Source: a virus. From it: a stretch of 22,757 nt of DNA. The notes under the pieces were generated by a model. It was not told the DNA's origin, did no database searches, and saw only the letters and a list, made by a program, of their open reading frames with translations. Numbering within the stretch: position 1 is the stretch's first letter; every line of letters starts with the position of its first letter. A program made the translations under genes and the position numbers. The stretch covers positions 1-22,757 of IMG/VR virus record IMGVR_UViG_3300020121_000065; one strand, 5' to 3'. Shown piece after piece: positions 2,485 to 19,367 of the stretch.

Positions 2485-3053
2485 AACGTCCCGGCAAGAA
2501 GCCGGCAAAAAAGAAAGCGCCGGCGAAGAGCAAATCGAAGGTGGGAAAAAGTAGGAAATCGGCACGGCTGGAACCGCAGGCGCACGGCGGCGCCCTGAAG
2601 CGCGAGAAGGCGGAAGTTAAGGCGATTGATCCGCGGCGGCGCGAATACCTGAACAACCGGGCCCAGGGCGACTCAAAGAAGGAAGCTGCGTTGAAAGCCG
2701 GCTTCAGCGAGTCAATGGCGGAGAACGCCAAAGAGAAGATCGAGAAGCCGATTGCCGAGCAACTGGCCCAGGCGATCCAGGCGCGGATCCCGCTTGCGAA
2801 GATTGTCCAGCGCATTGACGAAGGCATGGATGCGCTGGAGACAAAGATTGTGCAGCACCAGGGGATTGTGACGGACTATGTTGACCTGGTGGCATGGGCG
2901 GAGCGGCGGGAGTACACCGCGATGGCCGCTGAATATGGGCAGTATCACATCCCCCGCCAGAAGCACGAGCATGAAGGCGAAATCCACAATGATGTGAAGG
3001 TAGTTGTGGAATTCCTGGGCGGTGGCGGTGCGGAAGCCCCAGCGAGCGCCTAG
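2481..3053 (+). CDS. terS: terminase small subunit (putative)
   Basis: GTG start overlapping the previous stop by four bases. Residues 1-45 form a lysine-rich disordered tail. Residues about 50-95 match the helix-turn-helix style of small terminases (REYL..RAQGDSKKEAALKAGFSES, then ENAKEKIEKPIAEQLAQAI). In that family (Terminase_2-like) this part recognises phage DNA and recruits the large subunit. The following helix (about 96-160) would mediate oligomerisation. The gene sits directly before, and overlaps, a clear large terminase, the classic pairing. The long basic N-terminal tail may add non-specific DNA binding. The assignment rests on motif style and context, not on alignment. Confidence 0.75.
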   Translation: MKRPGKKPAKKKAPAKSKSKVGKSRKSARLEPQAHGGALKREKAEVKAIDPRRREYLNNRAQGDSKKEAALKAGFSESMAENAKEKIEKPIAEQLAQAIQARIPLAKIVQRIDEGMDALETKIVQHQGIVTDYVDLVAWAERREYTAMAAEYGQYHIPRQKHEHEGEIHNDVKVVVEFLGGGGAEAPASA

Positions 3054-4581
3054 CTTATTTCGAATTCGCTTCCAGCCTAAGCAACGCAGGTTCTGGGAGC
3101 TGGTAATCAGCAACCGGCCGGGCTGTCCGACAAAGATCGGTTACGGCGGCGCCCGCGGAGGAGGGAAGTCAAAAGCCGGCAGGGACGTAATGATCCTGCT
3201 GTGCCTGACGTTCCCGGCAATTGATTGCCTGATTCTGCGGCGGACGTGGAAGGAGGTTTACTCCAACCACGTTGTGCCGATGTTTCGCGAGTTCCCCGGG
3301 CTTAGACAATGGTGGAACGAGTCAAAGAAGACCCTGACTTTCCCGAATGGGTCAAAGCTGGTCTTCGGCTACGCGGAACACAAAGAAGACATTTATGCAT
3401 TCCAGGGCCAGGAATACGCATTCATCCTGGCGGAGGAGGCCACGCACTTCTGTGAAGAAGAGCTGGTCTTCCTGGAGACGTGTAACCGGTGGACGAAGAA
3501 TCCGTCGATCGTTCCCAAACTGCTCTATACGACGAACCCGGGCAACGTGGGGCATGAGTACATCAAGCGAGTACTCGTCGACGGCGATTACACCGAGAAC
3601 GAACGCAAGGAAGATTATGCGTTCATCCAGGCTTACGGCTGGGACAACGTCGAGTGGGCGATCCCGAGCTTTGTGCGCGAGCAGCGAATCGATCCGCTGA
3701 CCTGGAAGAGCTGGTCGAGTTCAACGCAGGAAGCTTTTGTCGCGCCTTTCATCCAGCAGTATTACAGCTGGTCAGATGAGACGCGCTTCCAGTTCTTCAC
3801 CACGGTCACCGATTACGGCCGCAAGCTGAATGCGCTGAGCGGGCAGATGCGGTCCGCGCATTTGTTTGGATCGTGGGACGCATTCGTCGGGCAGTTCTTC
3901 AGCGAGTTCAGCCGGCGGATCCACGTGGTAAAGCCGTTCCACATCCCTAGCTGGTGGGAACGGTTCTCAAGCTTTGACTGGGGCTTCAGCTCGCCGGCGT
4001 GCACGTTGTGGCATGCGGTCAGTCCTGAAGGCAGAGTCTTTACCTATCGCGAAGCGTACATCACGAAGCGCGATTCGGTATGGCTGGCAAAGAACAACGT
4101 CCGGATGACGGGCACGGAAAAGATGCGCTACAACGTTGGCGATCCTTCCTGCTTTAACCCAGGACAAGCAGGCCCAGTGATCTCAGAAGTTATGGGATTG
4201 CAGGGCTGGCAGATGATCAAGGGCGACAATGACCGCGTGAACGGCTGGGCCCGTTTGCGTGAATACCTGGCCTGGGAGATCGACAACTCCACCGGCGACC
4301 TGATCCGCGCGCCAATGTGGCAGATGTTCAGCGTGGACCCGGAATTCCCAATGATGGGATGTCCGAACCTGATCAGGACACTGCCGGCGCTGGTCCATGA
4401 CGAGCACGATCCTGAGGACGTGGATACGAACTCAGAAGACCACGCTCCGGATTCAGCGCGGTATGGCCTGATGACGCGGCCGAAGATTTCAGTGGTACCG
4501 CTCGAGGTGATGCCTGAGGAATATGCGGAAGCGACCAGGCGCGCCGAACACAATGAAAAGCGGCGCCACGCTCACGACTGA
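3004..4581 (+). CDS. terL: terminase large subunit (packaging ATPase and nuclease)
   Basis: Motor that pumps phage DNA into the prohead and cuts it. Numbering from the TTG at 3004, the Walker A motif is GGARGGGKS at 48-56. The Walker B strand is FILAEEAT at 140-147, with Glu where most relatives have Asp. The coupling motif is TTNPGN at 176-181. The RNase H-like nuclease carries FDWGF (D325), VGDPS (D380) and EDHAPDSARYG (D483), all at expected spacing. The start is uncertain: TTG 3004 overlaps the small subunit by 50 bases, and GTG codons at 3022 and 3028 are equally possible, the ATPase beginning only after residue 20. Length about 515-525 aa is typical. The linker between ATPase and nuclease (about 196-285) looks unusual, aromatic and serine rich. 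Confidence 0.95.
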   Translation: MWNSWAVAVRKPQRAPSLFRIRFQPKQRRFWELVISNRPGCPTKIGYGGARGGGKSKAGRDVMILLCLTFPAIDCLILRRTWKEVYSNHVVPMFREFPGLRQWWNESKKTLTFPNGSKLVFGYAEHKEDIYAFQGQEYAFILAEEATHFCEEELVFLETCNRWTKNPSIVPKLLYTTNPGNVGHEYIKRVLVDGDYTENERKEDYAFIQAYGWDNVEWAIPSFVREQRIDPLTWKSWSSSTQEAFVAPFIQQYYSWSDETRFQFFTTVTDYGRKLNALSGQMRSAHLFGSWDAFVGQFFSEFSRRIHVVKPFHIPSWWERFSSFDWGFSSPACTLWHAVSPEGRVFTYREAYITKRDSVWLAKNNVRMTGTEKMRYNVGDPSCFNPGQAGPVISEVMGLQGWQMIKGDNDRVNGWARLREYLAWEIDNSTGDLIRAPMWQMFSVDPEFPMMGCPNLIRTLPALVHDEHDPEDVDTNSEDHAPDSARYGLMTRPKISVVPLEVMPEEYAEATRRAEHNEKRRHAHD

Positions 4582-5475: not shown

Positions 5476-5608
5476 CGCGATGGAGCGCTTCATCTGCCGG
5501 CCGTGCTTGAGAGAAGTAACGGAGATGGAGCGGGACTGGGCGCGCAAACGGGACGGAGAGCGGCGCCAGAATTTCGACAATTTCTACGGAGTGTTATGCG
5601 GCGAATGA
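5180..5608 (+). CDS. cysteine-rich hypothetical protein, 142 aa
   Basis: ATG at 5180 with GAGG at 5166-5169 upstream. Residues 1-38 are serine and alanine rich and disordered. Residues 40-46 carry CSVCGC, a helical charged middle (about 60-100) follows, and a second CRPC pair near residues 107-110 could complete a split zinc site. The C-terminus is aromatic and charged, typical of genuine coding sequence. It overlaps the preceding zinc-finger frame by 296 bases, and its stop overlaps the start of the fibre-like gene. It could be the downstream half of a single frameshifted protein with 5041. Function unknown. Confidence 0.65.
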   Translation: MQKLEPDRSNLSGYSGKRETSSSAPAPISSAKPASAEVRRCSVCGCADQMTESGEVDPLGRKKFDHLVTIELRYLRRKEDLTLYLKNKGWRYKLHQARDAMERFICRPCLREVTEMERDWARKRDGERRQNFDNFYGVLCGE

Positions 5609-6789
5609 AGATGTGGCTGGGAATGGTGCTGCTGGCGGTCCTCGCCCTGGGCGCGAAGAGCGAAGGGCAGGCAGCTTATAACGCTGATCGGGACCAGTTC
5701 CTGTTCAAGGCGCAGGGCGTCACCTACCAATTGAACAACCGGATTGGCGCGCTCAATCTGACGTTTGAATATGTGATGAGTGGAAGCCCTGGCTCAGTGG
5801 TGATGACTATCCAGGGCTGCATGCGCGGCGGCACGTGCGACACGCTCGACACCTATACAGGCACTTCTAGCACGGTCCGCAAAATTACCGGCCTTTACGA
5901 CAATTACCAGATCACCAGCACCACGCTTTCAGGCGGGACATCGCCTACGGTGCAGATGAACGCCTACTTCACGTCGACCAGTTCTCCGACCTCGGCGCAG
6001 GGATCGCTTTCAGCGCAGGTGCAGGGCACCGCAGCCAGCGGATCGGCACCGGTGTGGAATCCGCTGTTAATGGCCGGAGTTGCTAACGCGGCGCCGCCGA
6101 CTGACACAGAAGCCGCGCAGGCCCCTTTTTCCCTAGATCTCGCGGGAAACCTTCGGGTCTATGCCCACCCGACAAATGTACTCGGCTGCTATAAGTTCAA
6201 CGCCCGGACTAATCCCTATTCAGGCTTGGCAGCGGGAGCGCCGCTGTTATCGATGCGCTGGGGCGATGCCACGCATATTGCCATCATCATGCGCGTCCAG
6301 GTGTCGGTGACGACCACGGTAGCGGCGACTGTGGCGGGACCAAATGAACGAGAGCTTATCATCGCGCGCGGCTTTACGGCGTCGGACACGGGCGGAGCCG
6401 CGATCACGCTGACGGGCAATAACCAAAAGATGCGGACGAGCCAGGGGACTTCGCTCTTTACGGACGTACGCGTCTTTGGCAATACCATCACTCCGGGCAC
6501 GCGGACGCTCGATGCCAATCCAATCAGCGCGGCGATGGGCTGGGGCGGCCTTAACTTTACCGGAATTGCGGTGGGTGGCGGAGGCGGCGCACAGACTTCA
6601 GCGGCATGGTCGAACGCAGGCGACGGACAGTACGTTGACCTACTGAACGCCACAAATGGGCAGGAATACCCGATTGTGCTGTCCACCAATGAAGGGATCA
6701 TCGGGCGCATCGGCAAAGACGCTCAGCCCACGGGCGCGACCAATCAGACCTATTGGCAGGTCACCTGGTGCGAGGCAAGCGCTTACTAA
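5596..6789 (+). CDS. exported fibre-like phage protein, 397 aa
   Basis: Start chosen at ATG 5596 (GGAG at 5588-5591); ATG 5605 is also possible. The frame extends upstream to 5503, but that part overlaps the previous gene. The N-terminus is a textbook Sec signal peptide: basic residues MRRMK, a hydrophobic stretch at about 7-19 and an Ala-containing cleavage region near 20-27. The remainder is rich in Thr, Ser, Gly and Ala with beta-strand patterning, as in tail fibres, adhesins or other surface proteins. The C-terminal ~200 residues look like a compact beta domain ending WQVTWCEASAY. No family is recognised. A signal peptide is odd for a virion component, so it may instead act on the cell surface. 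Confidence 0.75.
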   Translation: MRRMKMWLGMVLLAVLALGAKSEGQAAYNADRDQFLFKAQGVTYQLNNRIGALNLTFEYVMSGSPGSVVMTIQGCMRGGTCDTLDTYTGTSSTVRKITGLYDNYQITSTTLSGGTSPTVQMNAYFTSTSSPTSAQGSLSAQVQGTAASGSAPVWNPLLMAGVANAAPPTDTEAAQAPFSLDLAGNLRVYAHPTNVLGCYKFNARTNPYSGLAAGAPLLSMRWGDATHIAIIMRVQVSVTTTVAATVAGPNERELIIARGFTASDTGGAAITLTGNNQKMRTSQGTSLFTDVRVFGNTITPGTRTLDANPISAAMGWGGLNFTGIAVGGGGGAQTSAAWSNAGDGQYVDLLNATNGQEYPIVLSTNEGIIGRIGKDAQPTGATNQTYWQVTWCEASAY

Positions 6790-6826
6790 ATTTCTCACAA
6801 TGTTTTTCGCAAAGGAGCAATCTCTC

Positions 6827-7981
6827 TTGAAACGTACACTTCTCTCTATCATTGCGGTCCTCACGATCGCATGTTCAATGCAGGCGCAACAGGGCTATGT
6901 GCGCCAGGGCCCGGGCGGGCCGGTGATGACGGGCGTGAATGCCGGCATCTGCGGTGAATCGGCTTACCTGGCTGGAGTAGATTTCTGCATGCTGCGGGTT
7001 GGCCCGGGGCAGATCGGCTTCAGCAATGGCACGGGACCCGTGGCATCGCTTCTGCCTGTTACACCAAACTTCCTGCTTCCGGCGCCAGCAGCTGCAGGCA
7101 GCCTGGGAACGTCGACCACGGGAGGCACGATCGCTGCAGGAACGTACCGCGTGGGATTGACCTATGCCTCTCTCACAGGCGGACGAACAACGATTTCGAC
7201 GGACTCGAGCTCCACGCAGGCGACAACGGGATCCACGTCGACGTTGACCGGCAATGCGCCTTCCGCGATTGCGGGAGCCGCGGGCTATGAGATATGGGTA
7301 TCACCTGCAGGCGGGGCGGCGAACTCTGAGGTCCTGCAGCCGATCACAACCGCGGTATGCTCCGGAGCGTTCACGAATGCCGGCGGGAACACGATTTGTC
7401 CCTTTGGCTCGAACTATACGCTGACCTCTTTGACTTCTACCGGATTAGCGGTGCCAGGCGCGAACACAGCGGGAGTGATTAACTTCACTGCTGGACCGCA
7501 GACGGCGGTGACGTCAGTTACGACGGCGCAAACGATGCTTTCCGTTTCCGTTGCGAACGGCGCGCAGAACGTGCAGGGCAAGAAAGTCCATTGCGTGAGC
7601 CATGGGGTTTATAGCTTTGCCGGCGGCAGCACGCCTACGATGACGTTCTCAGTGACTGAGGGCGGGCAGACGCCGGTAACAATTACGTCGGCGGCTATCA
7701 ACACCGCGGCTTCAACGAACCTCCCATGGGAGTTCGATTTCGATCTGACCACAACGACCACGGGAGCAAGCGGAGTGCTGGAGTCCCATGGCAAGCTGGA
7801 CTTGAACATCACGGCGAACACGCCGGCGGCCGCCGTGGCAACTTACCATGACACCAACAGCGCGGCCACTACGGCCTTTAGCCTGGCGCAGGCTAATACG
7901 CTGGCATTCCAGGTGGCTGCTTCAGGCTCCATCAGTTCGGTGACGTTGCGCGATGCCTCCTGCGAGTCCATCCAGAACTAA
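6827..7981 (+). CDS. exported fibre-like protein with FN3-like module, 384 aa
   Basis: TTG start at 6827 supported by AAAGGAG at 6811-6817 with nine-base spacing; an in-frame ATG at 6800 has no such site. Residues 1-20 (MKRTLLSIIAVLTIACSMQA) form a signal peptide. The Cys at 16 gives a weak lipobox, so either a lipoprotein or cleavage after residue 20 is possible. Residues about 80-150 resemble a fibronectin-III-like repeat (AAGTYRVGLTYAS... GYEIWVSPAGG). The C-terminal ~150 residues form a Thr- and Ala-rich beta domain resembling phage structural tips. It is followed by an intrinsic terminator at 8051. Function is inferred as surface or receptor binding, with no family match by eye. Confidence 0.72.
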   Translation: MKRTLLSIIAVLTIACSMQAQQGYVRQGPGGPVMTGVNAGICGESAYLAGVDFCMLRVGPGQIGFSNGTGPVASLLPVTPNFLLPAPAAAGSLGTSTTGGTIAAGTYRVGLTYASLTGGRTTISTDSSSTQATTGSTSTLTGNAPSAIAGAAGYEIWVSPAGGAANSEVLQPITTAVCSGAFTNAGGNTICPFGSNYTLTSLTSTGLAVPGANTAGVINFTAGPQTAVTSVTTAQTMLSVSVANGAQNVQGKKVHCVSHGVYSFAGGSTPTMTFSVTEGGQTPVTITSAAINTAASTNLPWEFDFDLTTTTTGASGVLESHGKLDLNITANTPAAAVATYHDTNSAATTAFSLAQANTLAFQVAASGSISSVTLRDASCESIQN

Positions 7982-8050
7982 CAACTTTTAAAAGCTTGAT
8001 GGCGCGCCAGGCCTGTAACGCCTGCAACGCCCATTGGGGAGCCGAAAGCG

Positions 8051-8088
8051 GCCCGGTACATCGGGGGAAGTGCCGGGCTCTTTCGTTT
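8051..8088 (+). terminator. Rho-independent terminator before the lysis cassette
   Basis: Arms GCCCGGTAC (8051-8059) and GTGCCGGGC (8070-8078) pair over nine bases with one G-U, closing a ten-base loop, followed by TCTTTCGTTT. The AGGGGA ribosome-binding site of the next gene begins at 8089, directly after the U-tract. It would reduce read-through from the fibre genes into lysis genes. Confidence 0.7.
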
Positions 8089-8099
8089 AGGGGACACCC

Positions 8100-8285
8100 A
8101 TGCAGCAGCAGATCTACTGGGTCATCAGCATCCTGATCCAGCTGGCCGCGGCGATCTTCGTCTACGGCCGCCTGGCGGAGCGCAACAAGGTCCACACCGA
8201 GCAGATACAGAAGCTCGAAGACAAGACGGACAAGCACGACGGTGAGCTCGGCGTGGTTTACGGCACTCTGAGGCTTAAGCGATGA
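8100..8285 (+). CDS. small membrane protein, lysis cassette (XhlA/holin-accessory-like)
   Basis: ATG start with AGGGGA five bases upstream. The 61-residue protein has one membrane segment at about 6-24 (WVISILIQLAAAIFVYG) and a charged coiled coil at 25-55. This layout is like the XhlA-type or other small accessory proteins found beside phage holins. Its stop overlaps the ATG of the DUF5675-like gene (ATGA at 8282-8285). With the downstream holin it probably helps control membrane permeabilisation. The assignment rests on topology and neighbours only, as such proteins have little sequence conservation. Confidence 0.65.
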   Translation: MQQQIYWVISILIQLAAAIFVYGRLAERNKVHTEQIQKLEDKTDKHDGELGVVYGTLRLKR

Positions 8286-8686
8286 ATATCGAAGTCCGGC
8301 GCCGCTGGACAACCGGGAAGAGCGTTATTTCGCACGTCTTTGTGAACGGCCGTTGCATGTGCTTTGGCCTGGAGCCGCCGATCCGCACTGACGATGTGAA
8401 GCCGCGGGCGATTCCCGCCGGCACGTATGAGGTCACGATCCGCTGGTCAGAGAAGCATAAGCGGAACGTCCCGCACGTGGAGAAGGTCCCGGGATTTGAA
8501 GAGATCGAGATCCACGTGGGCAATTATCCGCGGGACACCGAAGGCTGCCTGCTGGTGGGCGAGACGATGGGCGAGGATTACGTCGGCAACAGCCACGGCG
8601 CATTTGAAATGTTTTACGCGAAACTGCTGGACGTCTGGAAGAAAGAGCCGATCGCTATTACCTATCGCGATCCGGAGGCGGCATGA
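8282..8686 (+). CDS. DUF5675-like protein, candidate murein-active lysis enzyme
   Basis: ATG start overlapping the previous stop. The 134 residues match my recollection of the DUF5675 family: an IPAGTYEV strand, a PGFEEIEIHVGN segment and DTEGCLLVGE, then a conserved N-S-x-x-A-F motif. His78 in IHVGN and Cys89 in TEGC recall the His...Gly-Cys arrangement of YkuD-type L,D-transpeptidases, so a peptidoglycan-cutting or cysteine-enzyme role is possible. No other endolysin (lysozyme, amidase or transglycosylase) was recognised in the window, and this gene lies between a small membrane protein and the holin. The family call is moderately firm; the enzyme role is inference. Confidence 0.7.
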   Translation: MNIEVRRRWTTGKSVISHVFVNGRCMCFGLEPPIRTDDVKPRAIPAGTYEVTIRWSEKHKRNVPHVEKVPGFEEIEIHVGNYPRDTEGCLLVGETMGEDYVGNSHGAFEMFYAKLLDVWKKEPIAITYRDPEAA

Positions 8687-9171
8687 ATCCGATTCTTGAA
8701 AAACTGTTTGGCGATGGCGTTACCAGCATCGGTGACGTGTTCACCAAGATAGTCGGCGCGTTCAAGCTTCCGCCTGAAGAGGCGGCAAAGTATGCGGCGC
8801 TGAAAGAAGCCAACACGGAGAAGCTGGCGGAGATGGACCGCGAGCTGCAGCAAAAGGCCATGGATATCCAGGCAGCCGAGGTTGCCGCGGCGAGCGCCAA
8901 CATTCGGGCTGAAGAAATGAGCGGCGACAAATATACGAGCCGCGCCCGGCCGAGTTTCATTTATCTGATGCTGCTCATCTTCCTGTGTAATTACGTGGTC
9001 TTTCCGCTCCTGGGCAAGTCGCCGATCGTCTTTCCTGATGCTCTGTTCTGGCTCTTCGGTTCCTGCATGCTGGGCTACACCGCGGCGAGGACGTGGGAGA
9101 ATTTCATGGGCGCGCCGGGCGATAGTTCGATGCAGATAGGCTCGCTTTTCAAAGCGGGAAATAAACAGTAA
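8683..9171 (+). CDS. holin, GTA 3TM-holin type
   Basis: ATG start overlapping the previous stop (ATGA). Residues 30-85 form a long alpha helix rich in Glu, Ala and Lys. This is followed by the SRARP motif at 87-90 and membrane segments at about 91-110 and 118-136. That order (helix, Arg-Ala-Arg-Pro, hydrophobic pair) is typical of the holin family described from gene transfer agents and many phages. It would form the membrane lesion that releases or activates the lysis enzyme. Length, 162 aa, fits. Only two membrane segments are obvious by eye, the third being weak. Confidence 0.8.
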   Translation: MNPILEKLFGDGVTSIGDVFTKIVGAFKLPPEEAAKYAALKEANTEKLAEMDRELQQKAMDIQAAEVAAASANIRAEEMSGDKYTSRARPSFIYLMLLIFLCNYVVFPLLGKSPIVFPDALFWLFGSCMLGYTAARTWENFMGAPGDSSMQIGSLFKAGNKQ

Positions 9172-9182
9172 GGAGAAAACCG

Positions 9183-9404
9183 ATGGTTCCCTGGTATATC
9201 GCTTTGCTGGCTCTTCTGATCGGCGCGCTCGTCACGTCGATCGTTGAGTACAAGCTCAACTACAACCTGGTGGACAAGATTCTTGATCTTTTCCGCAGCC
9301 TGGAAGCGAGAGCGGCCGCGGACAAGCGAAAGCTCGAAGCGCTTACGGCGCGAATGCGCGCGCAGGCCGCCGCCGATTTACAGAACATCAAATCGAAGTT
9401 TTAA
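9183..9404 (+). CDS. one-TM coiled-coil membrane protein, 73 aa (spanin-like topology)
   Basis: ATG at 9183 with GGAG at about 9172-9175. Residues 4-24 form one membrane helix (WYIALLALLIGALVTSIVEY). The rest is a long charged helix, rich in Ala, Arg and Lys, ending at a basic tip. Its topology resembles an inner-membrane spanin subunit or a second small lysis protein, but no outer-membrane lipoprotein partner is identified nearby. Position right after the holin supports membership of the lysis cassette. Function is inference. Confidence 0.65.
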   Translation: MVPWYIALLALLIGALVTSIVEYKLNYNLVDKILDLFRSLEARAAADKRKLEALTARMRAQAAADLQNIKSKF

Positions 9405-9416
9405 GGGGTAGCTCCA

Positions 9417-9968
9417 ATGGCGAGAGATCCACGGAGGTCCTCCGCGTTCGATAGCGGGATGCGGGGAAGAGAAAAGCCCAAGGTCCAAAGCGGCAATGGC
9501 AGCGGCGAGCAGGGCACAAAAGGTCCGGACGGCAGCGCCGGCGGGGAGAATGCCCAGGGCGCGGGAAAGACCATCGGCGATCCCAAGGGCGTTGGACTGG
9601 ATGCATACACTTCCGGGATGCGGGGCCCGGAGAAGCCGAAGCAGAAGTCGGTGGACCAGGCCATGCAGACGACCGGGGATGACGTCGCCTCAGGCAATCT
9701 GAGCGGGAGCAAAAAGCAGGGGCCGAATAGTGTTGTCGGAAAGCCTGAGGGCGAGAATCCGGAAGGAACCGGCAAGAGGTCTGGTGTGCAGGATGGCCAG
9801 CTACAGAACTCTGCCTCGAACTCTTACAAGATCGGAATTCCGGGGAACAACACGGAAGCCGCGGCTGCGGGCATAGAGCCTACAGCGGAAGAGGACGACA
9901 CGCACATCAACGTGCGGATCCCCAAGGCATCACTGAAGCGCAAAGCTCCGGGCGTCCAGGGGCAGTAA
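9417..9968 (+). CDS. disordered Gly/Ser/Lys-rich phage protein with repeated motif, 183 aa
   Basis: ATG start with AAGGGG at about 9404-9409. The protein is highly hydrophilic and almost certainly disordered for residues 1-150. SGMRGREKPK (13-22) recurs as SGMRGPEKPK (66-75), an internal duplication. The C-terminal ~25 residues (THINVRIPKASLKRK) look more structured and basic and may be the binding end. No family is recognised. It lies between the lysis genes and the small genes preceding the third fibre-like protein. Possible roles are a virion-associated peptide or an unstructured internal protein. Confidence 0.65.
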   Translation: MARDPRRSSAFDSGMRGREKPKVQSGNGSGEQGTKGPDGSAGGENAQGAGKTIGDPKGVGLDAYTSGMRGPEKPKQKSVDQAMQTTGDDVASGNLSGSKKQGPNSVVGKPEGENPEGTGKRSGVQDGQLQNSASNSYKIGIPGNNTEAAAAGIEPTAEEDDTHINVRIPKASLKRKAPGVQGQ

Positions 9969-10253
9969 GTGCGCCGCGTTCTTTTATGCGCGGGATGCGG
10001 TGACAAGTTTCCTCACGCGCATGGCGCCGATCGCTTTTGCGATGATGATTGCCGTGAGGACCACAAGGCCGCGCTCGCAGAGGCCGAACGGGCGATTCTC
10101 TCCAAGGGCTTCTCGCGCGATGAGGCCACGCCGAACCTCTTCCACAAGGACGGCGTGGCCATTTCTATTGAGCAGGTGATGGATGAAGGCATGGATAACG
10201 TTCTGGCGGCGCATGACCGGGCAAAGCAGCAAGGACTCCAGCTCCCTACTTGA
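9969..10253 (+). CDS. small zinc-finger-like protein, 94 aa
   Basis: GTG start directly after the previous TAA. Residues 7-28 contain CAGC followed by CDDDC, giving CxxC...CxxxC with nearby histidines, a plausible zinc-binding finger. Residues 33-90 are helical and acidic. No family is recognised. It is another zinc-binding candidate after those at 4802-5608. The following gene overlaps its 3' end by about 40 bases or more, depending on the start used. Confidence 0.6.
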   Translation: MRRVLLCAGCGDKFPHAHGADRFCDDDCREDHKAALAEAERAILSKGFSRDEATPNLFHKDGVAISIEQVMDEGMDNVLAAHDRAKQQGLQLPT

Positions 10254-10563
10254 TCAGGCGCGAACGGAGCACATCCGTGATCTCCGCGTGCTCCTGGACC
10301 AGAGCGTCGAGCGGGAGAAGGAGTTTGCCGGCATGCTGAAGCTGGTGATGGAGGAGAGATTCTACCGGCCGGTTATCACTCGCCCGGGCGAGAACAAGAC
10401 CACGCCGATTCTTCCTCCGGACCAGCTCCAGGACGTGACGGCGTTTGACCAGGCCGCGGATCAGGCGCAGATCGAGGACCACGAAGAGCTGGGAAGGAAT
10501 CTGCAGCAGGAATTTGAAGAGCTTAAGAGAGAGGAAGACGAGTACCGAGCGCAGAAGGCATGA
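10213..10563 (+). CDS. coiled-coil hypothetical protein, about 116 aa
   Basis: The frame is open from ATG 10183. I prefer ATG 10213 because the ten extra residues look like out-of-frame sequence of the previous gene, but 10183 has a weak AGG site and cannot be excluded. The protein is acidic and helical, with coiled-coil character near residues 15-45 and 85-115 and a proline-containing middle (RPGENKTTPILPPD). The stop overlaps the ATG of the large exported protein. No family is recognised; possibly a chaperone or accessory to the fibre-like gene, by position only. Confidence 0.6.
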   Translation: MTGQSSKDSSSLLDQARTEHIRDLRVLLDQSVEREKEFAGMLKLVMEERFYRPVITRPGENKTTPILPPDQLQDVTAFDQAADQAQIEDHEELGRNLQQEFEELKREEDEYRAQKA

Positions 10564-12404
10564 AGAAACTTTATAACGTTATTGCACTATTACTCTTTTT
10601 TGCCTCAGGCGCGATCGCGCAGACCACGACATCCGTCACCGGCACGGTGAAGGACGTGACGGGCACGCCGATTGTCTCCGGGAAGATCACTTTTCAGTTC
10701 ATGCCTGGTCCGGATGCGACGATCTCGGGATCGGCGCGCTTCTCTCTTTCGCAGACGAACTGCGCCATCAATCAACCGCAGATATCGACCGTCTCCCGCG
10801 CGGCAAACGTGGTGACGGCCACGCTCTCGGCCACACCTACACAACCGTTTAGTATTGGCGATGTAGTAAACGTCACGGGCGTGACGGACACCAGTTTCAA
10901 CGGCACGGGATTCACCTTGACGAACGTAGCCGGCGGCGGAGTGACCCTGACCTGGTCACAGACCGCGGGCAATGCCTCCAGCTCGGGCGGGTTCGTGGGC
11001 GGAGTGCTGGGGAAGAACGGGACTGGGGTCTGCACGCTTGCTACAAATACCGCCCTGCAGCCGCCAGGCTCGTATTACGTGGCCACGGTCTATGCCGGAG
11101 GGGTAAAGACCTCCCAATTCAACTTCCCGACCTATCTGGCCAGCCAGGACATTTCCACGACGGTCCCCACGCCGGCTACGGCGCCCTTCCAGAGCTTTGT
11201 GGACGTGATGTCAAACCAGACGATCGGCGGGAACAAGAACTTTACCGGGGCGATCTCTTTCCAGAGCGGATTCGCTTTCGGGTCCTCCGGAGTGATGGGC
11301 TGGTCCAGCAACGTGGATCCCAGATTGGCGGCAATCGATTCGGCCATCTCGCGGATCGCTGCCGGAGTGCTGGGAGCTGGGAACGGGACTCCTGGTGATG
11401 TTAGCGGGACATACAAGGCAACCGTGTTTCTCGGGGCATCAGCGAATCCGGCAACCGCGGGTGTGCTGCGCGGAGCCAGTGGGGATTCACTGGTTTGTTT
11501 TCGCAATAATGCCAATGGCGCGAATGTCTGCCTGAAGAAAACCGGCGCTCTGGCCAGTCCGTTTCCGGCGGATACGCTTGATCTCACCGATTTCGGCGGC
11601 GCCAAGGCTGCACAGTTGTTTGCGACCGGCAGCGGCGGACAAAGCAGCTCATCGTTTATAGGAACTGCGAATGGAAGTCCTGGCTGGGCGCTAAATTCAA
11701 CGGGCGGAGCAGCGGATCAGAAGTGGATGGACTGCTTCCTAAATACCACGACCTATGCGTGCCGCTTTGTAAATGACGCTGGCAACACTGCCAACGCATT
11801 TATGACCGTAAGCCGGGGATCTGGCGCAGCCGTAGGAACGATGACATTTGGGGCGGGCGGATTCGTGCAGACGCTCCCATCGGCCACAGGTACGCTTGCG
11901 CGCACATCGGGCGATACTTTCACTTCGACCACATTGACCAGCCCGGTCATAAATGGAAGCCCCACAGGTACAGGCATTCCAACTATTACCTTAAAGAAAG
12001 GGAGCGGCGGCGGAAACTATACAAGCGCATCCACAACCTATGTCGTGGTGGACGCAACGAACCTCTGTTATACGGTGACAATTCCGACAGGATGGAAGCT
12101 GGCCGTGCAATCTCAAGGCTCCCTTGGAACAAGCACAGCGGCGGTATCCGCCAATATTGCATTGACTGATAATGCAGCCTGCTCTACGGCAAATGCTGGC
12201 GTGTTAGTTGAGAATGCTTTTCAAACCGTGGGTGCGGGAGCAACATCCCCATTCAATTTAGTATGGGCCATTACTGGCGACGGGGCTTCTCACAATATCG
12301 CACTACAGTTTAAGACCAGCAATGGGGCTGATTCCGCATTGCTGGCCAATTCTAGTGCAACTTTTTTGCCGACAATGGTATTTCTGCTCACGCCGAGCAA
12401 TTAG
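10560..12404 (+). CDS. large exported fibre- or adhesin-like protein, 614 aa
   Basis: ATG start overlapping the previous stop (ATGA). A clear Sec signal peptide is present (MKKLYNVIALLLFFASGAIA, cleavage probably after residue 20). Next come a carboxypeptidase-regulatory-like strand pattern (VTGTVKDVTGTPI, about 26-40) and a module containing GDVVNVTGVTDTSFNGTGFT (about 102-121), a pattern common in soil-bacterial surface and phage proteins. The C-terminal 150 residues form a Thr-, Ala- and Ser-rich beta domain. Length and composition suit a trimeric fibre or adhesin. It is the last + strand gene before the minus-strand cassette. A signal peptide on a fibre-like phage protein is unusual; receptor binding is inference. 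Confidence 0.75.
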   Translation: MKKLYNVIALLLFFASGAIAQTTTSVTGTVKDVTGTPIVSGKITFQFMPGPDATISGSARFSLSQTNCAINQPQISTVSRAANVVTATLSATPTQPFSIGDVVNVTGVTDTSFNGTGFTLTNVAGGGVTLTWSQTAGNASSSGGFVGGVLGKNGTGVCTLATNTALQPPGSYYVATVYAGGVKTSQFNFPTYLASQDISTTVPTPATAPFQSFVDVMSNQTIGGNKNFTGAISFQSGFAFGSSGVMGWSSNVDPRLAAIDSAISRIAAGVLGAGNGTPGDVSGTYKATVFLGASANPATAGVLRGASGDSLVCFRNNANGANVCLKKTGALASPFPADTLDLTDFGGAKAAQLFATGSGGQSSSSFIGTANGSPGWALNSTGGAADQKWMDCFLNTTTYACRFVNDAGNTANAFMTVSRGSGAAVGTMTFGAGGFVQTLPSATGTLARTSGDTFTSTTLTSPVINGSPTGTGIPTITLKKGSGGGNYTSASTTYVVVDATNLCYTVTIPTGWKLAVQSQGSLGTSTAAVSANIALTDNAACSTANAGVLVENAFQTVGAGATSPFNLVWAITGDGASHNIALQFKTSNGADSALLANSSATFLPTMVFLLTPSN

Positions 12405-12444: not shown

Positions 12445-13104
12445 TTATTTGCCGGTTCCATACAGACGCCAGTGAACCTCGGTGGCGCAGTGGTCCCACG
12501 TTGCTCCAACTTCTTGCCCGTTGGGGTTGGTAATGTTGCCTCCGAGAACCGAGGGACCTTCGATCCGCCAGAAGTCGGCGCCGCAGAATATAAGTCCGCC
12601 CACATAGCGATAAACATCCACCACCGAACCAGCGGGGATGTCTATTGGAGTAGGGAATGTCCACTGGCGGTCCGTGTTTCCTGTTACGTCCTGGTGCTTG
12701 TCAAACTCGCACAGGCTATCGAACAGCATGTGGAAATTTCCAGAAGGGTCTTTTATCCAAATCTGCAGGTTGCTGACTGGTTCAAACCGAGCGTTGGCGG
12801 AAGTTCCTATCCAACAGTGAAGAGCCTGAAGATGCAAGGGAGCTTGCAACGTGTAAGTGCCATACTGATCGACGTTCATTTGGCACGGACCCAGCTTCAT
12901 CAACACAAAGAAGCTGGAAGGCAGTGGCGAATACCACCCTTCATAAGGGACGGATTGACAGGGGTTATTTTGGCCGGCGTTTCCTATGTAGGGCGCCAGG
13001 TGGCCTTGTTGGAGATAGTCCGGAGCGCCCGGATTCATGGAAATCTGTTGAGAGAACGAAGGCAGAGACACTAAGAGCGTAAAAAGCAAAGCGAGCTTTT
13101 TCAT
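12445..13104 (-). CDS. secreted six-cysteine protein, 219 aa (moron candidate)
   Basis: Minus-strand ATG at 13102-13104 with AGGAAG at 13110-13115. The N-terminus is a strong signal peptide (MKKLALLFTLLVSLPSFS). The mature part has six cysteines, enough for three disulfides, and a beta-rich, aromatic composition with a WIKDPSGNFHMLFDS stretch. It is transcribed against all neighbours and visibly richer in A+T. This suggests a horizontally acquired moron that alters the host surface or acts outside the cell. No family is recognised. A + strand frame over the same bases (12322-13074) is an artefact. Confidence 0.75.
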   Translation of the reverse strand: MKKLALLFTLLVSLPSFSQQISMNPGAPDYLQQGHLAPYIGNAGQNNPCQSVPYEGWYSPLPSSFFVLMKLGPCQMNVDQYGTYTLQAPLHLQALHCWIGTSANARFEPVSNLQIWIKDPSGNFHMLFDSLCEFDKHQDVTGNTDRQWTFPTPIDIPAGSVVDVYRYVGGLIFCGADFWRIEGPSVLGGNITNPNGQEVGATWDHCATEVHWRLYGTGK

Positions 13105-13374: not shown

Positions 13375-15747
13375 GTGAACGACGTCGAGACGAAGCAAGT
13401 AGCCCGGGCGGGTGGAACGGGCCTGAGAAAAGTCTTATACAGCTTCCAGGAGATGTTGCACAACGATCTTTCCCGGAACCGCTTCGCGGAAGAGCGCGAA
13501 TGGTACGAATCAGCCTTGTTTTATCAGCGCCGGCAATGGCTGAAGTGGGACAACAGCAACAAGCGCTGGAGCGTGGTAAAGCAGGACCCGGACAAGCCCC
13601 GGCCGATGCCGGTGACGAACCACTTTGCCCGGACCATCAATGCGAATGCCAACCAGCTGGCCGGCGGCAATCCGCGGGTCCAGGTAACACCGAATGACGA
13701 TTCGGACAAGAACCGGCGCGGCGCCCAGTATGCGGAACGGGCGATCCAGGCGATTGACGAGGAGTCAGGCTTCAACATCCAGAGGCCTTTGCTGGGCAAG
13801 CATACGGCGCTGTGGGGCATCGGCGTAACGATTGATATCTGGGACAGCTCAAAGTCAAACGGGGTCACGAAGATCCCGCAGATTGAAATACAGAGCACGC
13901 CGAAGCTGGGATGCATCGATTGCGGGCAGGTGGCGGACCTAAGCCCGGAGATGAGCACGGCACAGCCTGTCGGTCCTGGAGACCTGGCCCAGGCCAACGG
14001 TGTTCCGGATAACGCGGGAGCGCAACTCCCTGGGCAAGGCGAGGCGCCGTGTCCTTCATGTGGATCGATGCAGACGATGGGCTGGATGGCGCAGCAGCCC
14101 GTGACGACCGAGGTCAAGGAATTTTCGAAAGGACGGATCTGCACGGAAGTGCGGCCGATCTTTGAGTTCTTTATTCCGCGGGATGCGATTCATCCGAACC
14201 TTTCGAAGAAACTGCAGCGGCGGTACCGGAAACCGCTGAGCGAAGCAAAGAGGTTGTGGCCGGACCAGGCGGACGATCTGAAGGCGGATGAAAAGCAGGA
14301 TGTCCATGAGATCTACATGGAAGCGCTGCGCAGCCTGGTCAACTACAACTACATGCACGACCAGGCAACTGATGGTCTGACGATCACGGAGACCTGGATC
14401 GATTTCGACCAGCTCCCGGACAACGTGCAGGAGTTGCTAACGCAGGCCTGCGAGACTGGCCAGGACGATGAAGGCGAACCGGTTGAATATCCGGACGAAG
14501 AGCTGGATCCGGTTGAGCAGCTGGAGCAGTGGGGAATTTACATTGTCGCCGGCGGCGGGAAGGTCCTGGACTGGGGCATCAATAACGTCGAGGGTGAAAA
14601 GCCTCCGACGTTCTATATATGGGACGTGGACCCGGCGAGCGTTTATCCAAAGTCGCTGGGCTCTGACCTGGTGCCCTTGCAAAAACGTTTGAATCGCCTA
14701 GACAGCCTGATGGAGCTGGGCATGATGTCAAACGCCGCGGGTAAGTGGCTGTGGCCGACAACGCAGACCACGAAGCCGCCAACGGGATCGCCGTCGGACG
14801 TGGTTGAGTTTGATCCAATCGGCGATGGCAAGATTGCGCCAACATTTGTGCAGCCATCTCCATTTCACCAGGCGTGCTGGAACCTGCGCGCGGCGATCAA
14901 GCAGGACTTCATGGAGATCGGCATGACGGAGTCGATCAACCAGGGACAAAACCCGAGCGGAGTGACGGCGTTCCGCGGGCTGGCGTATCTGGGAGCGAAG
15001 TCGGCCGAACAGTTCTCCACGCCGCGGCAAAACTGGGAACGGGCGCTGGCGTGCCGGCATAAGAAGAATTTGATCCTGGCAAAGCGCAACTGGAATGAGG
15101 AGCGCAAAGTCAGGGTCGCAGGCTTCAACGGCCGTTACGGCATGCAGGCCATGACCGGAGCGGACCTGGAAGGCGATTACTCGATTGAGATAGTGGAAGG
15201 ATCGAGCCGGCCGAAGACGTTTGACGAAAAGCAGCAGGACGTGGCCATGCTGCTGCAGGGCGGGTTGCTCGATCCCACGGATTCAGCCACGCGGGAATAC
15301 ATCTTTGACCAGGTCAATCTTGACGGGGTCAACATGGTGGACCATCTCCAGTATCTGAAAGCGGAGCGTGATCTGGACATGGTGATAGCCGGGAATATTC
15401 CGGCGCCCAACAAATATGCGAATCCGCAAATCTTCCTGAAGGTGTTTTCGAACTTCACCTTTACGGAGGAGTTTGACGCGCTGCCTCCGGATGCGCAGCA
15501 ACGAGTGGACATGGCGTGCGATTTCTTTGCCCAGATGATCCAGCAGGCGCAAGCTGCGGCCGCGGAGCAGCAGCTGAGGGCGCAGATGGCGTTGAAGGTG
15601 GGAACGGCCATGGCGGGCAGGCGCGAGAAGTCAGGGAAAGCGGGCAATACGGCGCTTGAAGGCGTACCGGGAAGCACGACGTCACCGGAGGCCAGCGCCG
15701 CCGGCGCGAACCAGGAAGCAAATCAGGTAGCTGCACAGCTGCCGTAA
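13375..15747 (+). CDS. portal protein (P22-type, putative)
   Basis: Forms the dodecameric ring at the capsid vertex through which DNA enters and leaves. The GTG start at 13375 lacks a clear ribosome-binding site. The N-terminal part (FAEEREWYESALFYQRRQW, then NHFARTINANANQLAGGNPR) is typical of P22-like portals. The 790-residue length is close to the 725 of P22 gp1. The central part includes PPTFYIWDVDPASVYPKSLG and later SGVTAFRGLAYLGAKSAEQF, consistent with the stem and wing. Unusually, residues 180-229 carry two CxxC pairs (C180/C183 and C226/C229), a possible zinc ribbon with a Gly/Pro/Ala-rich loop between. The tail after about 710 is helical, then disordered. Confidence 0.85.
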   Translation: MNDVETKQVARAGGTGLRKVLYSFQEMLHNDLSRNRFAEEREWYESALFYQRRQWLKWDNSNKRWSVVKQDPDKPRPMPVTNHFARTINANANQLAGGNPRVQVTPNDDSDKNRRGAQYAERAIQAIDEESGFNIQRPLLGKHTALWGIGVTIDIWDSSKSNGVTKIPQIEIQSTPKLGCIDCGQVADLSPEMSTAQPVGPGDLAQANGVPDNAGAQLPGQGEAPCPSCGSMQTMGWMAQQPVTTEVKEFSKGRICTEVRPIFEFFIPRDAIHPNLSKKLQRRYRKPLSEAKRLWPDQADDLKADEKQDVHEIYMEALRSLVNYNYMHDQATDGLTITETWIDFDQLPDNVQELLTQACETGQDDEGEPVEYPDEELDPVEQLEQWGIYIVAGGGKVLDWGINNVEGEKPPTFYIWDVDPASVYPKSLGSDLVPLQKRLNRLDSLMELGMMSNAAGKWLWPTTQTTKPPTGSPSDVVEFDPIGDGKIAPTFVQPSPFHQACWNLRAAIKQDFMEIGMTESINQGQNPSGVTAFRGLAYLGAKSAEQFSTPRQNWERALACRHKKNLILAKRNWNEERKVRVAGFNGRYGMQAMTGADLEGDYSIEIVEGSSRPKTFDEKQQDVAMLLQGGLLDPTDSATREYIFDQVNLDGVNMVDHLQYLKAERDLDMVIAGNIPAPNKYANPQIFLKVFSNFTFTEEFDALPPDAQQRVDMACDFFAQMIQQAQAAAAEQQLRAQMALKVGTAMAGRREKSGKAGNTALEGVPGSTTSPEASAAGANQEANQVAAQLP

Positions 15748-15769
15748 AACTGTCACGATAGGAAGGTAA

Positions 15770-15940
15770 ATGCCTCATGGAAGACAAAAACGACGCAAGC
15801 TTACAGCAGCCGAACGAGCTCGAGAAGAAATCAGGAAACGGCAGCTCGGATTCTACTGGGCCTACTTCGCCTTCCGCGAAGGACGCAAGCAACGAAGGAT
15901 CAAGCGAACCGATCCCAACCAACTCCAGCTCTTCAGCTGA
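15770..15940 (+). CDS. possible small basic protein in an overlapping frame, 56 aa
   Basis: An ATG at 15770, three bases after GGAAGG, opens a frame to a TGA at 15938-15940. The protein is strongly basic and helical, with an aromatic core (LGFYWAYFAFREG) between charged helices, more protein-like than the Ser-rich sequence read in the 15777 frame over the same bases. Just after its stop, GGGAGG (15941-15946) precedes a GTG at 15957 in the 15777 frame. The true arrangement may therefore be this small gene followed by a shorter gene starting at 15957. Both readings remain open. Confidence 0.4.
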   Translation: MPHGRQKRRKLTAAERAREEIRKRQLGFYWAYFAFREGRKQRRIKRTDPNQLQLFS

Positions 15941-18140: not shown

Positions 18141-18647
18141 TTGGCTGATCAGAATACGATCAACCGAATCGGCGGACTGCTGAAGAACGTCTATTCGGAT
18201 GCGATTGTTGAACAACAGAACCTTGCCGCTGTGGCGCGCAAGTTGTTCACCAAGGCCAAAGGCGTCCGGCTGGGTGGCGATCACTACGAGATTTCAATCC
18301 GTATCGGCGGAAACCGCGCCGGTGTGGGTGCTCGCAACTCAGACGATCCTTTGCCTGTACCCCTGCGCCAGCAGGAAAAGAAATTCCTTGTATTCGACCG
18401 CGGCGTCTTCGGCGTAATCCGCGTCTTTGACAAGGACATCCAGAACTCAAAAGACAACAAGCAGTCCTTCATCAACCACCTGGACGATGAAGTCACACAA
18501 GTCGCCAAAGACGTGATGAAGCACATGAACATCATGACCTATGGCGACGGCACGGGCACGCTCACCACGGTGAACGCGAACACCGCGAACACCAACCAGT
18601 TCGTGGGCAAGGCCGGCGCCGCATTCGGCCAGTTCGGCACCCGCTAA
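18141..18647 (+). CDS. major capsid protein, N-terminal part up to an in-frame stop
   Basis: TTG start with GGAG at 18130-18133. The 168 residues (NRIGGLLKNVYSDAIVEQQN, then GGNRAGVGARNSDDPLPVP) look like the N-arm and start of an HK97-fold capsid protein of podovirus-like phages. A TAA at 18645-18647 ends it, but the same frame continues without further stops to 19367, adding 239 residues. The complete frame would give a 408-residue capsid protein if the TAA coded for an amino acid. A TAC (Tyr) to TAA change is the simplest explanation. TAA is an ordinary stop for other genes here, so a changed genetic code is unlikely. Confidence 0.75.
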   Translation: MADQNTINRIGGLLKNVYSDAIVEQQNLAAVARKLFTKAKGVRLGGDHYEISIRIGGNRAGVGARNSDDPLPVPLRQQEKKFLVFDRGVFGVIRVFDKDIQNSKDNKQSFINHLDDEVTQVAKDVMKHMNIMTYGDGTGTLTTVNANTANTNQFVGKAGAAFGQFGTR

Positions 18648-19367
18648 CTGCAGCTGAACGATCAGATCGACGTTTGGGACCCGACGTTCACCATCCAGCG
18701 CACGCCGGCGGGCGGAGTCCAGATCACCAACCTGGATCCCACCACGCAAACGGTGACGGTCAGCGCCAACCTGACCCTGACCGCGAACGACGTGGTTGTC
18801 CGCGCCAGCTCTGCCAACAAGGAATACATTGGCCTGCAGCTTGCGACCGACAACAGCTCTTCTGTGACGTTCCAGGCGCTTTCGCGTGGTTCGTTCGCTA
18901 TCCTCCGCGGCAACGTGGTGGCGGCGGGCGGAGCAGGCCTGGCGGAGAGCCACCTGCAGCAGATCATCTCGCTGATTGAGATGAGCTCGGGCGAGACTCC
19001 TGACCTTTTCCTGACCGGCAACGCGCAGTGGGACGCTTACGTCGCCCTGGGCCAGTCACTCAAGCGGTACGTCAACACCCAGAAGCTCGATCGCGGCTTC
19101 CAGGAGCTGGACTACAACGGTATCCCGTTCCTCAAGGACGTGGATGCTTCACCCGCGGAGATCTTCGCCATCAACAGCGAATATGTCCAGAATGGCGTGG
19201 TCACTCCGTTGAGCTGGTCTGAGGAAGACGGCTCGATCCTGAAGTGGGACGCCGGCTTTGCGGCTTACAAGGCCTTCATGCGCGAATATGGCAACTACGT
19301 ATATCCGCGCCCGAATGCCATTGGCCGCATCGATACCCTGGCGGTCAACGCAGTCTACGTCAGATAG
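18648..19367 (+). CDS. major capsid protein, C-terminal part, same frame after the stop
   Basis: It continues the 18141 frame directly after TAA (LQLNDQIDVWDPTFTIQR) to TAG at 19365-19367. The only plausible internal start is GTG 18753, without a good ribosome-binding site, so independent translation is doubtful. Content is typical of the capsid core: DPTTQTVTVSANLTLTANDV, LAESHLQQIISLIEM and PDLFLTGNAQWDAYV, then WDAGFAAYKAFMREYGNYVY near the end. It would be expressed only by read-through, by a suppressor tRNA, or if the stop is a sequencing error or a mutation that has inactivated the gene. Confidence 0.75.
   Translation: MQLNDQIDVWDPTFTIQRTPAGGVQITNLDPTTQTVTVSANLTLTANDVVVRASSANKEYIGLQLATDNSSSVTFQALSRGSFAILRGNVVAAGGAGLAESHLQQIISLIEMSSGETPDLFLTGNAQWDAYVALGQSLKRYVNTQKLDRGFQELDYNGIPFLKDVDASPAEIFAINSEYVQNGVVTPLSWSEEDGSILKWDAGFAAYKAFMREYGNYVYPRPNAIGRIDTLAVNAVYVR

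Follow-up and report, generated by a model that had tools for sequence, protein, structure and literature searches.

Morphogenesis of tailed phages is taught as an entirely cytoplasmic process. In a 22.8 kb fragment of an uncultivated virus (IMG/VR record IMGVR_UViG_3300020121_000065; hereafter the window), which carries the terminase, portal, capsid and holin genes of a tailed double-stranded DNA phage, three fibre-like proteins, named SP1, SP2 and SP3 in this study, begin with N-terminal export signals (leaders), and a fourth leader-bearing protein, SP4, adjoins them. The question raised by this locus is where such proteins go and what they do there. Our analysis suggests that SP1–SP3 are very probably exported adhesins of the fibre class. 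The best explanation, which we hold to be somewhat likely, is that they are Sec-exported, disulfide-bonded tail fibres or spikes that probably join virions at lysis, with SP4 as an exported companion. The window phage and its kin are presumed to be soil phages.

Leaders of SP1–SP4

SP1 (5596..6789, plus strand; 397 amino acids (aa)) has a leader of about 22–24 aa, MRRMKMWLGMVLLAVLALGAKSEG, with a predicted cut before glutamine (Gln, Q), and a Shine-Dalgarno (SD)-like GGAG upstream of the start at 5596. SP2 (6827..7981, plus strand; 384 aa) has a TTG start preceded by an SD-like AAGGAG and the leader MKRTLLSIIAVLTIACSMQA, predicted to be cut before Q; an alternative in-frame ATG at 6800 likewise retains the leader. 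SP3 (10560..12404, plus strand; 614 aa) has a 20-aa leader, MKKLYNVIALLLFFASGAIA, with AIA before the Q at the predicted cut and an SD-like GAAGG ahead of 10560. SP4 (12445..13104, minus strand; 219 aa) is convergent with SP3 and has an 18-aa leader, MKKLALLFTLLVSLPSFS, a predicted cut before Q and the SD sequence AGGAAG. The SP4 relatives L057/L058 keep all six of its mature cysteines, and in record G017 an SP4-type gene is found in the same convergent layout, adjoining another leader-bearing protein.

The leaders of SP1–SP3 are built of n-, h- and c-regions: each opens with two or three positively charged residues, continues into a strongly hydrophobic core and ends in a cleavage site of small residues with Gln directly behind it. 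The mature parts are rich in Thr/Ser/Gly/Ala. These results agree with a sequence-only reading of the window by a model, which had noticed export signals and Thr/Ser/Gly-rich continuations in these three proteins; none of the three starts was found to lie downstream of the hydrophobic segment. Leaders were called with a home-made predictor that combines a von Heijne-type matrix with hydrophobicity and charge rules. The three proteins passed, as did SP4, which was found beyond the original trio. Random N-termini with each protein's own composition passed in 0.3–0.8% of trials, permuted N-termini in 1.6–5.7%, and none of 93 non-gene open reading frames (ORFs) passed. The occurrence of four leaders within one late block is far above chance.

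Cysteines and cleavage sites

The mature parts of SP1, SP2, SP3 and SP4 contain 4, 6, 8 and 6 cysteines, respectively, all even numbers. Leader statistics were drawn from the window record and 17 related records. Among ORFs of at least 150 aa, an even number of mature cysteines was found in 41 of the 47 with a leader, compared with 141 of the 263 without (Fisher p 8.6e-6). In a later curated set, with leader-bearing ORFs taken from at least 100 aa, four spurious or antisense SP-like ORFs removed and SP4 added, the proportion was 47/52, compared with 141/263 for the others. When each BLAST cluster was represented by one leader-bearing protein, the excess of even counts persisted (21/25, p = 4.6e-4).

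Leaders and cysteine pairs also change together. Well-supported branches of the SP1-domain tree force three gains or losses of a leader, and each of the three is paired with a change in a cysteine pair. The SP1 pair C198 (6187–6189) and C392 (6769–6771), both on the plus strand, is confined to the leader-bearing members of the window clade, all six of which carry it; L012, the leaderless and fully supported sister of the leader-bearing L013, has neither cysteine. In L042 a leader of its own is fused onto the common leaderless form, together with a different cysteine pair that is unique among the members. The pair within the C-terminal knob of SP3 (C503, 12066–12068, and C541, 12180–12182, plus strand) is likewise confined to leader-bearing knob members. 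The automatic rule did not pick up the leader of L014, which was read by eye. For L033, L034, L040 and L041 it called leaders at internal starts; these were rejected, since the starts are located inside the conserved SP1 domain.

An [AGS]-then-Q cleavage motif was found in 38 of 53 leaders. Gln at position +1 after cleavage is known as the Q-rule of Bacteroidetes (PMC5837995), and Porphyromonas phages encode signal-peptide proteins that follow it (PMC10367356). Cysteine parity, the covariation of leaders with cysteine pairs and the [AGS]-Q motif constitute three independent signals, and together they support the conclusion that the leaders are functional; the disulfides are predicted from these sequence correlations. 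Cleavage and an extracytoplasmic location are supported indirectly, by the parity and the Q sites. The host may be a member of the Acidobacteriota or Bacteroidota, a suggestion drawn from the Q sites and a GC content of ~58%; scans of GTDB with the SP1 and SP3 domains gave zero relatives.

Probable fibre nature of the leader-bearing proteins

Pfam and PHROGs gave nothing significant for SP1–SP4, and searches of the Protein Data Bank by sequence found no relative of SP2 or SP4. SP1, SP3 and a canonical leaderless member of the SP1 family had zero matches among 50,697 annotated phages, and sequence matches to the SP1 and SP3 domains were limited to unannotated phage proteins. The C-terminal 240 residues of SP1 (residues 158–397; 6067..6786, plus strand) matched 33 loci in IMG/VR scans. 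The common form of this domain is a leaderless phage protein of ~220 aa beginning MAIQVQGNGG. One leaderless homologue (L030) adjoins a PHROG tail-fibre gene, and in three others (L021, L025 and L036) the large terminase gene is nearby. In L039 (2447–4936), a leader-bearing protein of 785 aa and 12 cysteines was observed near a leaderless SP1-type gene.

The C-terminal 140 residues of SP3 (475–614; 11982..12401, plus strand) matched 14 loci in IMG/VR scans. Structure prediction, as proposed in the sequence-only reading, was applied to the C-terminal domains of SP3 and SP1. The SP3 model (predicted local distance difference test score, pLDDT, 87.7) is a jelly roll of the TNF/C1q class, and its best structural match is the PLTL lectin 9ib7 (Z 14.9, root-mean-square deviation 1.9, 123 residues aligned), followed by BC2L-C (2wq4, Z 14.1), the Bdellovibrio tip Bd2734 (8okw, Z 12.7) and C1q heads. 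SP3 is thus predicted to end in a TNF/C1q-like lectin knob, a class known for trimers. The SP1 domain gave a weaker model (pLDDT 72.9) with weak C1q-like matches of Z up to 7.8. Architecture, gene position and homologues together point to SP1–SP3 as probable members of the fibres.

Leaders on tail-collar fibres and spikes

The closest annotated relative of the window portal is from the complete circular podovirus ctLwi270 (MW202554; 24% identity over 86%). Downstream of its portal, ctLwi270 encodes leader-bearing proteins of 846, 195 and 263 aa, the last of which is a LamG lectin. In the same downstream stretch, a PHROG tail spike of this phage gains a leader from a better start (GTG with an SD sequence), and its tail-collar fibre (PF07484/PHROG) carries one; both proteins are members of the respective families. 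Three more collar fibres from IMG/VR carry a leader ahead of the motif T-[IV]-x-R-P-x-K-S-F-G-G...DTIY.EFNGNI, and the leaderless L107 and L108/L109 begin with Met-Gly directly at the corresponding motif. In all four of these collar proteins, the end of the leader coincides with the beginning of the motif at which leaderless fibres begin, which argues for a cleavable leader placed ahead of an ordinary tail fibre, so that cleavage would restore the usual N-terminus. The leader-bearing collar fibres keep a cysteine pair (PC...C..GG), which is absent from L107 and L108.

No leader-bearing fibre-like proteins were found in the stretches scanned of T7, lambda, P22, HMO-2011, CRP-13, HTVC010P and phi38:1; two of these, CRP-13 and HMO-2011, are cultured phages with a relationship by terminase or type. 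Two exported proteins were found in the cultured Pelagibacter phage HTVC033P; they are adjacent signal-peptide proteins of 534 and 224 aa (14977–17255 of L095; 18052–20330 of the record) with four cysteines each in the whole protein, and one of them is annotated as carbohydrate-binding. This phage is a possible test system.

Gene position and copy number

The SP block lies between the terminase large subunit (3004..4581, plus strand) and the portal or head-tail adaptor (13375..15747, plus strand; phrog_332). In the larger records, leader-bearing proteins are placed either between terminase and portal, as in G001 and the window, or behind the other virion genes as the last of their block, as in G015. 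Leaders are found on most fibre-like proteins of these records, and few leaderless fibre candidates remain. The SP3-type knob occurs once per record, with or without a leader. Records with a leader-bearing SP1-type domain have a single copy and no leaderless duplicate, and two leaderless records hold two copies of the domain.

A tandem of four leader-bearing proteins (937, 496, 1413 and 780 aa) was observed in G015 (14335–25273; L080/L081), one of which has kelch-like and ASH/HYDIN-like immunoglobulin matches below or near the Pfam cut-offs. An exported or lipoprotein-like family of ~200 aa with 4–6 cysteines was also observed (G001 10342–11034, G004 15192–15779, G016 2936–3520).

A proposed route to the virion

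SP1–SP3 would be made late, as receptor-binding fibres or spikes with added Sec signal peptides. The host Sec system would translocate them and signal peptidase I would cut the leader, often before Gln. In the periplasm the fibres would fold and oxidise, the paired cysteines forming disulfides, and DNA-filled heads would be assembled in the cytoplasm as usual. Opening of the inner membrane by the holin would then allow the heads to reach the periplasmic fibres, and fibre attachment would be the last step, at or during lysis. P22 tail spikes and T4 fibres join nearly finished particles last and are able to do this in extracts, and a periplasmic store of fibres met by heads at holin opening is therefore feasible.

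Alternative explanations

Whether the exported fibres are virion components is a point on which we lean modestly towards yes, and several points weigh against it. In tailed phages, fibre assembly is normally a cytoplasmic event. The leader-bearing collar fibres and tail spikes come from related phages and not from the window, and the collar leaders of ctLwi270 and L104 have no positive charge in the n-region. SP2 has no relatives in IMG/VR, the predictor was home-made, and a leaderless fibre could exist outside the window, since the window is only a fragment.

The sequence-only reading had taken export as a sign of surface or extracellular proteins, perhaps for host-surface modification or particle-matrix adhesion. 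The export part of that claim is sustained by the even cysteine counts, their covariation with leaders and the cleavage sites; the proposed purpose is not. The main alternative, though less likely, is nevertheless that the proteins are adhesins or decoys that never join virions. Displayed on the infected cell or released, they would coat host glycans, so that superinfection or the re-adsorption of progeny to debris is blocked, or they would alter the surface of the host. Export and the predicted disulfides would fit this, and there are parallels: lambda Lom and Bor are known phage-exported surface proteins, a role in altering the outer membrane has been proposed for the Q-rule proteins of Porphyromonas phages (PMC10367356), and exported adhesins of Bdellovibrio resemble phage fibres and have TNF-like tips (PMC10769870). 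SP4, convergent with SP3, also resembles a moron gene. However, a decoy should be accompanied, within one genome, by a leaderless protein with an identical type of tip, and no such pairing was found for the SP1- and SP3-type domains in the records examined. The genes also occupy the usual tail-fibre positions, with few leaderless candidates left in the larger records to serve as fibres, and the collar fibres retain the fibre N-terminal region right after the leader. Gene position, leaderless fibre homologues, the lack of a leaderless duplicate and the collar leader fusion therefore favour the phage's own tail fibres or spikes over host-surface modification.

An uncleaved hydrophobic segment acting as a membrane or virion anchor, which the sequence-only reading had also offered, or as a lipoprotein signal, is improbable. 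SP2 matches a relaxed lipobox (LTIAC) by eye and a lipobox-like motif occurs in 6/53 leaders, but most c-regions carry host-type [AGS]-Q sites, the end of the collar leader falls precisely at the position where leaderless fibres begin, as expected for cleavage, and paired cysteines require periplasmic exposure. Less probable still is that the leaders are non-functional by-products of captured host exported genes. SP3 opens with a carboxypeptidase-regulatory-like stretch that by eye resembles host exported proteins, and the N-terminal regions that carry leaders show little homology among themselves; against this, leaders persist across divergent records, covary with cysteines and accompany even cysteine counts.

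Comparison with known systems

In the open-access literature, with subscription papers outside the reach of the search, no account was found of a tailed phage whose tail fibres are exported by Sec. The window proteins share the architecture, C-terminal binding tip and late gene position of podovirus fibres, collar proteins and spikes (T7 gp17, P22 gp9, PF07484). They differ in having leaders for Sec and cysteines that are paired and even in number, whereas T7, P22 and lambda fibres are leaderless. The Bdellovibrio MAT (mosaic adhesive trimer) fibres (PMC10769870), which have a conserved N-terminal domain of ~130 aa behind the signal peptide, are also phage-fibre-like proteins with a signal peptide and TNF-like tips, one of which (Bd2734) is among the matches of the SP3 knob; however, they are chromosomal adhesins of a predator, not encoded in a virion gene block, and no match was found at sequence level. 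Leaders of Porphyromonas gingivalis phage proteins (PMC10367356) follow the same host rule of Gln at +1; the function of those proteins is not known, whereas the cargo here is fibre material of presumed soil phages. G3p of filamentous phages (M13 pIII, PMC8310372) is a receptor-binding virion protein exported by Sec via a signal sequence, but these phages assemble in the membrane, unlike the window phage, which is tailed and encodes a terminase, a portal and a holin. Lom and Bor of lambda are exported, and Lom is encoded between tail-fibre genes, but they are outer membrane proteins and not fibres.

Neighbouring genes

A lysis cassette between the fibre-like proteins, also recognised in the sequence-only reading, is confirmed by family matches. 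It spans 8100–9404 on the plus strand and consists of a small transmembrane protein (8100..8285), a DUF5675 protein (8282..8686; PF18925, E 2.1e-32; phrog_1501), a GTA_holin_3TM holin (8683..9171; PF11351, E 2.1e-15; phrog_3427 holin) and a second small transmembrane protein (9183..9404), spanin-like as judged from its position. It is followed by a repetitive Gly/Lys-rich protein (9417–9968, plus strand) with two similar segments (SGMRG.EKPK) and no family match. The major capsid gene (18141–19367, plus strand) has a single in-frame TAA at 18645–18647, and each half matches the same capsid PHROG; the capsid relatives in G011 and G016 carry no interruption. The interruption may reflect a sequencing error, a defective genome or a population variant.

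Significance

We give an even chance to the broader proposal that in tailed phages of some soil and freshwater bacteria the fibres leave the cytoplasm via Sec, are oxidised in the periplasm and become attached to finished heads only at or after lysis, so that the virion would be completed outside the cytoplasm. If so, tailed-phage assembly would gain a second compartment through the periplasmic maturation of fibres, and with it a dependence on host Sec, Dsb and glutaminyl cyclase, and phages could use disulfide-stabilised tips. Receptor-binding proteins of this kind could then misfold when expressed in the cytoplasm, and annotation pipelines may file such fibres as host-derived or secreted accessory genes. 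It would also hint at a way in which bacteria could come to possess secreted fibres of phage-like type, as in the Bdellovibrio MATs.

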